In this document: positions 21,793 through 24,293 of the stretch, piece by piece | Position numbering within the stretch: the stretch's first letter is position 1 | Layout: each line of letters starts with the position of its first letter | Assembly: GCA_016219275.1 (NCBI GenBank) | Contig: JACRBM010000045.1 | Span: forward strand, 1-64,000 | DNA: 64,000 nt | From: Chloroflexota bacterium | GTDB lineage: Bacteria > Chloroflexota > Anaerolineae > UBA4142 | Direction of reading: 5' to 3' | Program-made: the position numbers and the translations under genes | The notes under the pieces: model-generated | What the model was told of the DNA's origin: nothing | Databases searched by the model: none | What the model saw: only the letters and a program-made list of their open reading frames with translations

Positions 21793-22992
21793 ATGTCCCT
21801 GATGAACTATGTGAAATTCGCGCCGCGCATCTTGTACAAAAAAGGCGCGTCGCCACTCTACTTTGTCCTCTTCATCACCAAAAACTGCAACGCGCGCTGC
21901 GGGCACTGCTTGCTCGGCTCGCACGAACGTCACACCGGCGAATTGACGATAGACGAAATCGAAAAAGTCAGCCGCTCGATGGACGATATGATTTTCTTTA
22001 CGCCGACCGGCGGCGAGCCATTCCTGCGCAAAGACCTGCCGGAGATCGTCAAGATTTTCCACAAGAACAATCACGCGCCGAACGTCGGCATTCCGACGAA
22101 CGGCTCGCTCACGAGTCGCGTCGTGGACGGCGCGCGCGAAATGCTCGACGCGTGTCCTGATATGGATTTGCACATTGACATTTCGATTGACGGCGTCGAA
22201 GAAGACCACGACAAGTTTCGCGGCTTCAAGGGCTTGTTCGACCGCGCGATTCGCACATACCGCGAACTGCGCGTCCTCGAAAAACACTACCCCAGTTTTT
22301 CCGCGTGCATCCAAATCGCGGTCAGCGCGTACAATCACGATCGCCTCGAAGAGATTTACGATTATCTGCGGACGTACGTCGGCGTGAATACCGTGTTCAC
22401 TCTCCTCTTGCGCGGCGGACCGAAAGACCCTGCCGCGAAATTCACACCGCCGATTGACCCGAAGGCGAACCAATTCGACATTGACAACTATATGAACTTT
22501 CACTATCACCTCGAACATGCGAACAAATCGCGCGAGTTGTCTGGGTATTACAAGCTGCCCTTCGGCGATTTCATCAACGCCAAACGCATCATTCGCCCCA
22601 AGCTCATCACCAAGATGGTCAAGGAACGCCGGTTCGTGATTCCGTGCTACGCCGGTTCGCTCGGCGGCGCGATGTACGCGAACGGCGACGTGCTCGCGTG
22701 TGAATTGCTCGAAGAAAAAATTCTCGGCAACGTGCGCGATTACGATTACGATTTCAAAAAGATTTGGTTCTCGCAAAAAGGCGATGAGGCGCGCGAGTGG
22801 ATCAGCAAGACCAAGTGCTACTGCACGTACGAATGTTTCCTCACCGTTAACATTCTGTTCAACCCGCTGATGTATCCGGTGATTCTAAAAGAGTGGGCGA
22901 GTTTGAAATGGGCGCAGTTGCGGCATGGTCTCTCGCCCGAGGTGATGCAGTCCGCGCCGCGCCCGGCGGAAAGTTATCGTGTGGAAATATAA
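21793..22992 (+). CDS. Radical SAM/SPASM protein
   Basis: The 399-residue enzyme has the radical SAM cluster motif CNARCGHC (Cys32, Cys36, Cys39), the GGEPFLR SAM-binding motif near residue 75, and a C-terminal SPASM-like region with Cys at IPCYAGSLGGAMYANGDVLACE and KCYCTYEC for an auxiliary cluster. AAGGAG precedes the ATG. Such proteins act on peptides, sugars or lipids; the substrate cannot be read here. Neighbouring glycosyltransferases suggest surface glycan or lipid biosynthesis, while no RiPP precursor is visible next to it. Confidence 0.88.
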   Translation: MSLMNYVKFAPRILYKKGASPLYFVLFITKNCNARCGHCLLGSHERHTGELTIDEIEKVSRSMDDMIFFTPTGGEPFLRKDLPEIVKIFHKNNHAPNVGIPTNGSLTSRVVDGAREMLDACPDMDLHIDISIDGVEEDHDKFRGFKGLFDRAIRTYRELRVLEKHYPSFSACIQIAVSAYNHDRLEEIYDYLRTYVGVNTVFTLLLRGGPKDPAAKFTPPIDPKANQFDIDNYMNFHYHLEHANKSRELSGYYKLPFGDFINAKRIIRPKLITKMVKERRFVIPCYAGSLGGAMYANGDVLACELLEEKILGNVRDYDYDFKKIWFSQKGDEAREWISKTKCYCTYECFLTVNILFNPLMYPVILKEWASLKWAQLRHGLSPEVMQSAPRPAESYRVEI

Positions 22993-23037: not shown

Positions 23038-23556
23038 ATGCGTCTACAAGTATTCCTGCATGCAATTTTGCTCGTCACGCTCACCGCGTGCGCCGCGCCG
23101 TCAACGCCGACCGCGACAGCAGTCCCACCGACCGCAACGGTTGCCGTGGCAACCAAGCCAGCGGCACAAGCCACCACTCCAAGCAACGCGTCCAGCGCCG
23201 CGTCGTGCGCGATGACGAACGCCGCGCCGCTCGATAGTTTTCGTTCCGACGATCCGAAAAAACTCGACGCGTCGGCGAAACCCAAACTCGTCGAGTTCTT
23301 TGCGTACTGGTGAGGCACCTGCAACGCGTTGAAACCCGTCGTGCACGGGCTAGAAGCCAAGTATGGTGGCTGTGTAGATTTCGTCTATCTCGACATTGAC
23401 AACACCGCGACCCAGGACGCGAAACGCAAACTGGGTTACAGCGTCCAACCGCACATGTTCCTGCTCGATGGCAAAGGTCAAGTTATCTGGAAGAAACTCG
23501 GTTTTGTCACCGCGCAGGAATTGGAAGATCAACTCAAGGCGGTCACAAAACCGTAA
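23038..23556 (+). CDS. Lipoprotein thioredoxin with TGA at the first active-site Cys
   Basis: From ATG 23038 (GAGGGAG upstream) a lipoprotein signal (LLVTLTAC) and a Thr/Pro/Ala-rich linker lead to a thioredoxin fold. The frame reads VEFFAYW, then TGA (23311-23313), then GTCNALKPVVHGLEAKYGG and a complete thioredoxin C-terminus ending at TAA 23556. In homologues the position is WCGTC, so TGA replaces the first redox Cys, at codon 92. No other lesion occurs and the last base overlaps the ATG of the next gene. This fits a selenoprotein of UxxC type; a recent nonsense mutation is the alternative. The protein would act outside the membrane as a disulfide reductase. Confidence 0.65.
23335..23349 (+). 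promoter_or_regulatory. Candidate bacterial SECIS hairpin
   Basis: CCCGT (23335-23339) and ACGGG (23345-23349) enclose the loop CGTGC, beginning 22 nt after the TGA. The loop has a G at its second position and a distance to TGA within the range described for bacterial SECIS elements. The stem is only 5 bp, so support is modest. Confidence 0.35.
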
Positions 23557-24293
23557 TGTACAAAAATCATCGCATCTCCCTCGTGATGCCGTGCTACAAC
23601 GAAGAGCACGGCTTGCCAGAAGTCTTTCGCGACCTGCCCACCATCGTGGATGAAGTAATCGCGGTGGACAACAACTCGACCGATCGTACATCCGAGGTCG
23701 CGCGTCAACTTGGCGCGACGGTCATCCGCGAATCCAAACAAGGATACGGCGCGGCGTACAAAACTGGGTTGCGCCACACGACCGGCGATATCATCGTCAC
23801 GATGGATGCCGACGGCACGTATCCGCGTAATTTCATTCCGATTCTGCTCGACGTGATGATTGACGAAGGTTTCGATTTCATCACCTGCGACCGCACGGGT
23901 CACAAGGACAAACCAAGTAATTGGCTGCGCGTGTTCGGCAACGACGTGCTCAATTTCTTCATCTGGATTCTGTTCTGGTTTCGCGTGCGCGATTCGCAAT
24001 CGGGCATGTGGGTGTTCCGCCGGTGGGTGCTCGAACACTTGACGCTCACAAGCGACGGCATGGCATTCTCCGAAGAGATCAAACTTGAAGCCATGTCGAA
24101 AAAGAAACTCATTCGCGGCATCGAATTGCCGGTCTATTACAAAGAGCGGCACGGCGTTAGCAAGCTCCGCATCTGGCGCGATGGATTTTACAATTTGTTT
24201 TTCCTTTTCCGCAAACGTTTCGGTTTGCTCGGCAGCGCGCCGCCCTTGGTCGAAGCACGCCGCGCGAATTTGCCAAAAGAATCGAATGTATAG
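23556..24293 (+). CDS. Family 2 glycosyltransferase (dolichyl-phosphate-mannose-synthase-like)
   Basis: The 245-residue protein has a soluble GT-A fold: ISLVMPCYNEEHGLPEV, DEVIAVDNNSTDRT, KQGYGAAYKTGLRHTTGDIIVTMDADGTYP with the DxD site, and SQSGMWVFRR. It resembles polyprenyl-phosphate sugar synthases that make lipid-linked donors for GT-C enzymes. That fits the six GT-C genes directly downstream. Its ATG overlaps the TAA of the thioredoxin gene (TAATG), implying coupled translation. Confidence 0.9.
   Translation: MYKNHRISLVMPCYNEEHGLPEVFRDLPTIVDEVIAVDNNSTDRTSEVARQLGATVIRESKQGYGAAYKTGLRHTTGDIIVTMDADGTYPRNFIPILLDVMIDEGFDFITCDRTGHKDKPSNWLRVFGNDVLNFFIWILFWFRVRDSQSGMWVFRRWVLEHLTLTSDGMAFSEEIKLEAMSKKKLIRGIELPVYYKERHGVSKLRIWRDGFYNLFFLFRKRFGLLGSAPPLVEARRANLPKESNV

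Follow-up and report, generated by a model that had tools for sequence, protein, structure and literature searches.

Thioredoxins with a UxxC active site (Trx, PF00085) are an experimentally verified family of prokaryotic selenoproteins (PMC13188914), and selenocysteine (Sec) thioredoxins have also been recorded in Geobacter, Anaeromyxobacter, Carboxydothermus and Treponema (PMC1794560). The inventory that includes the verified family also lists thiol:disulfide interchange proteins with UxxC of the PF13098 type, and gives UxxU for other families but not in its thioredoxin row (PMC13188914). For the Chloroflexota, the 2006 survey counted only three selenoproteins (PMC1794560), and literature searches returned no Chloroflexota selenothioredoxin. 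In their available portions, the two surveys list no separate lipoprotein subfamily of Sec thioredoxins (PMC13188914, PMC1794560). The gene at 23038–23556 on the forward strand of the window, the whole 64,000-nucleotide stretch analysed here, very probably encodes a thioredoxin that is anchored at the surface and carries selenocysteine in place of its first reactive cysteine. Taken as a whole, this reading (UGA 23311–23313 as Sec, a hairpin behind it, and an exported, lipid-anchored oxidoreductase with a U92-G-T-C95 centre) can be held with a confidence approaching certainty; the frame, the fold family, the machinery, the exchange of TGA and Cys, the covariant hairpin and the signal motif come directly from the sequence.

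The ATG at 23038 and the TAA stop at 23554–23556 share a frame with the TGA at 23311–23313, and decoding this TGA as U gives a single thioredoxin-like protein of 172 aa containing W-U92-G-T-C95, in which Sec takes the first redox position and Cys95 is the predicted resolving residue. The Pfam Thioredoxin model PF00085 spans the TGA (residues 75–167, E 2e-12, 47.4 bits against a cut-off of 23.5), and the frame is therefore homologous on either side of the codon. A first-pass annotation had proposed a selenocysteine thioredoxin with TGA at the place of the first redox cysteine, a frame intact before and after it, and a TAATG junction with the next gene. Each of these points stands, the ATG of the next gene beginning at 23556 within the TAA; the lipoprotein signal at the N-terminus is a feature it had missed. 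It had also remarked that TGA is a normal stop here, and TGA does close 16 of the 37 frames in the window that are bounded by stops and span 300 codons or more. Could the codon be a genuine stop? The product would then be a 91-residue secreted peptide, with the rest of the frame either made from an internal start, for which a TTG is present at 23329, or left untranslated. This is very improbable, as the thioredoxin fold continues across the codon, the homologues with Cys are one continuous protein, and the stem-loop discussed below is retained in the TGA forms only.

The source genome (6.16 Mb, 97.9% complete, a draft assembly of 107 contigs) encodes SelB (335 bits), SelA (585 bits) and SelD (366 bits), together with one tRNA-Sec above the Rfam cut-off (70.6 bits), which ARAGORN confirms with the anticodon TCA. 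The first-pass annotation had made its proposal depend on selA, selB, selD and tRNA-Sec; all four, the genomic machinery that marks a bacterial selenoprotein, are present, and the objection that Sec machinery might be absent falls away. Reading of the UGA as some other residue, whether as Trp, by near-cognate readthrough or under a changed genetic code, is the least probable of the alternatives: the genome holds tRNA-Sec and all the Sec enzymes, many genes are terminated by TGA, and relatives carry Cys, not Trp, at this position. Selenoprotein genes of the source genome were sampled through family searches. The selD gene has its own in-frame TGA (SYAMCAGUASKLG), and a formate dehydrogenase gene and a formate-dehydrogenase-like gene have one each (L079:1873 on contig C33 and L083:1924 on contig C9), within the motifs ARLUHASTV and ARIUHSSTV, where the TGA stands at the customary Sec site of formate dehydrogenase. 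The formate dehydrogenase-type genes are probably further selenoprotein genes of this organism, which, given the in-frame TGA in these genes and in selD, appears to use Sec independently of the thioredoxin gene. Another formate dehydrogenase-type gene with one in-frame TGA lies on contig C40, near 297675–298442.

A homologue search at the level of the order, at that of the phylum and among GTDB contigs turned up both forms that the first-pass annotation had suggested looking for. At this exact codon, 34 distinct Chloroflexota homologues from 31 genomes have TGA and 12 others have TGC or TGT; the named matches are Chloroflexota, Anaerolineales, Ardenticatenales or Candidatus Aquidulcis records, all inside the Chloroflexota. 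The in-frame TGA thus aligns with the Cys of homologues and is kept in other species, and its occurrence at the identical codon in 33 other distinct sequences excludes chance. The selA gene is found in 30 of the 31 genomes with the TGA form versus 4 of the 12 with the Cys form (Fisher p 2.8e-5, with genomes counted without correction for kinship); G104, one of these four, carries its Cys form as a divergent paralogue. In the 2.2 Mb assembly of G025, which has the TGA form (L042), selA was not detected, perhaps through incomplete assembly or loss of the pathway. The tree requires four Sec/Cys changes, so the exchange has occurred repeatedly; with the tree taken as unrooted, no direction is claimed for it.

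A pseudogene, or an error of sequencing or assembly behind which the codon is really TGC or TGT, might be suspected in a window from a draft assembly, but this is as improbable as the genuine stop. The frame 3' of the TGA is under protein-level constraint, the 33 further sequences with the same TGA are without other decay, and the TGA form goes together with selA and a covariant hairpin. Sequencing error in particular is very unlikely because independent genomes carry the same TGA. All three alternatives, namely an error, a genuine stop and an altered code, were rejected on the conservation of the TGA, the continuity of the fold, the Cys relatives and the Sec machinery.

The selenocysteine reading includes a SECIS-like hairpin at 23333–23351 on the same strand, starting about 20 nt 3' of the TGA, with a stem that pairs 23335–23339 with 23345–23349 (CCCGU/ACGGG) around a CGUGC loop at 23340–23344. 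The bSECIS model published in PMC13188914 has a loop of 3–9 nt, a stem of 4–16 bp, a G in the first two loop positions, a distance of 16–37 nt from the UGA and an energy of at most -7.5 kcal/mol. The 5-nt loop with G in second place, the 5-bp stem and the UGA-to-loop distance of 26 nt all fall within these ranges; against the energy limit, the window's hairpin reaches -6.7 kcal/mol (23 nt) and the mean over the 34 TGA forms is -9.8. Taken alone, the window's hairpin has a synonymous p of 0.30, and the minimum-energy fold of the 50 nt after its TGA differs from the common hairpin. When each sequence was folded without an alignment over the 50 nt that follow its TGA, the structures were likewise mixed, and the common hairpin emerged by comparison only. 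Since the window's own hairpin is among the weaker ones, the case for a SECIS rests on comparison.

That comparison used an ungapped alignment of 51 nt counted from the TGA (34 TGA and 12 Cys sequences), in which the stem joins positions 25–29 with 35–39 and reaches 23–41 in some sequences. Among the TGA forms, 89.5% of cells are paired and five of seven pairs show compensatory double changes; the covariation score is 0.311 versus 0.158 in shuffled alignments, with 0 of 500 shuffles as high, and slid registers all score far below the actual one. The hairpin is absent from the 12 Cys forms, whose pairing (47.6% versus 46.7% shuffled) is at chance. Under synonymous recoding, the TGA forms have 6.3 of 7 pairs observed versus 4.7 expected and -9.8 versus -4.9 kcal/mol, and the Cys forms 3.3 pairs versus 3.4 and -4.4 versus -3.2 kcal/mol. 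By this synonymous randomisation, the predicted hairpin of the TGA forms is more than the protein sequence dictates. The small hairpin at a suitable distance that the first-pass annotation had pointed out is thus backed by comparison with relatives and not by single-sequence stability.

These features suggest a mechanism in which the ribosome would decode UGA 23311–23313 as selenocysteine via tRNA-Sec(UCA), SelA, SelD and SelB, with the stem-loop at 23333–23351 recruiting SelB. The product would then be exported, lipid-anchored at Cys18, and act beyond the cytoplasmic membrane. Its N-terminus (23038–23091, forward strand) carries, as judged by motif, a signal peptide and a lipobox ending in Cys, LTAC (MRLQVFLHAILLVTLTAC), and Cys18, the presumed site of lipidation, is invariant across the 35-sequence alignment. 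Given this lipoprotein signal, the protein is most likely extracytoplasmic and lipid-anchored. Motif inspection identified a signal peptide and lipobox in nearly all homologues, and found neither in L030 and L076. The AlphaFold model (35 family members) has pLDDT of at least 95 over most of the thioredoxin domain, and among the best 50 PDB matches listed nearly all are thioredoxins or thioredoxin-containing entries.

The U92-G-T-C95 centre would be that of a thiol/selenol-disulfide oxidoreductase, in which Sec92 attacks the substrate disulfide and Cys95 then resolves the mixed selenenylsulfide. Cys57 and Cys112 co-occur in nine sequences (the window's clade and the L026/L027 pair) and are absent together in the other 26 of the alignment; in the window's clade they probably form a structural disulfide that would staple the N-terminal linker onto the thioredoxin domain. 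The likely electron donor is the CcdA/DsbD-like membrane protein of the genome. A single DsbD_TM/CcdA-like gene and a single VKOR gene are present, so the thioredoxin may have access both to a reductant and to an oxidant partner in its presumed redox role. Sec insertion itself, lipidation, the direction of electron flow, the substrate and the electron donor are what we infer from sequence.

How does the protein compare with described families? Like the Trx selenoproteins, it has the PF00085 domain and a redox pair in which Sec comes first and Cys second, and by domain (a score above cut-off) and UxxC motif it is a predicted member of that family. Because UxxC thioredoxins are already experimentally verified, it adds a member to a known kind. 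It differs from them in its signal peptide, lipobox and Pro/Ala/Thr linker, its Chloroflexota lineage and its fixed gene neighbours. It falls short of the TIGR01068 thioredoxin equivalog (48.7 versus a cut-off of 96.8 bits), and the NCBIfam search gave no specific model for it. The PF13098 selenoproteins are likewise UxxC thiol:disulfide oxidoreductases of thioredoxin fold, but the protein scores below their curated cut-off (24.4 versus 27 bits). TlpA, ResA and DsbE resemble it in a predicted membrane anchor with the thioredoxin outside the cytoplasm, whereas the matches lie far below the cut-offs (DsbE 34.9 versus 123 bits, ResA 20.1 versus 170).

What is distinctive is a lipobox export signal in almost every homologue, a fixed gene placement, repeated switching between Sec and Cys, and one UxxU relative. 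In this relative (L026:1714–1725, identical to L036) the two redox codons are both TGA (WUPTU), which implies a UxxU active site in one assembly, G005. The family could tentatively be regarded as an unlisted Chloroflexota subfamily, a proposal that falls a little short of probable: extracytoplasmic, lipid-anchored selenothioredoxins whose active site switches between CxxC and UxxC. At least one genome (L026/L036) would extend this range to UxxU, where the centre might be a diselenide and one shared SECIS would serve both codons. The gene adds a well-supported selenoprotein to the Chloroflexota, and gene callers that treat TGA purely as a stop would split such genes in two. A single exported protein that occurs naturally in Sec and Cys forms, the latter pairing at chance level in the hairpin region, offers a clean system for testing the rules of SECIS elements and for asking why selenium serves outside the cytoplasm.

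The thioredoxin gene lies between a radical SAM gene (21793–22992, forward strand), which is above no cut-off in the NCBIfam search, and a glycosyltransferase family 2 gene (23556–24293, forward strand), whose overlap with it suggests co-translation. Members of the window's family and order keep this arrangement; the glycosyltransferase was not seen beside the thioredoxin on the L026/L036 contig, which is short. Both neighbours are conserved more strongly than the thioredoxin, with identities in relatives of 85–95% for the radical SAM protein (full-length matches) and 67–90% for the glycosyltransferase, against 42–67% for the thioredoxin. Extra thioredoxin copies, such as L028 and L029, sit outside this neighbourhood. 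A second, divergent thioredoxin with an in-frame TGA (YSDYULAC) is found at L030:1549–1551 (G014, contig C100); its downstream stem has the same shape as in the family, and L076 is its Cys paralogue.
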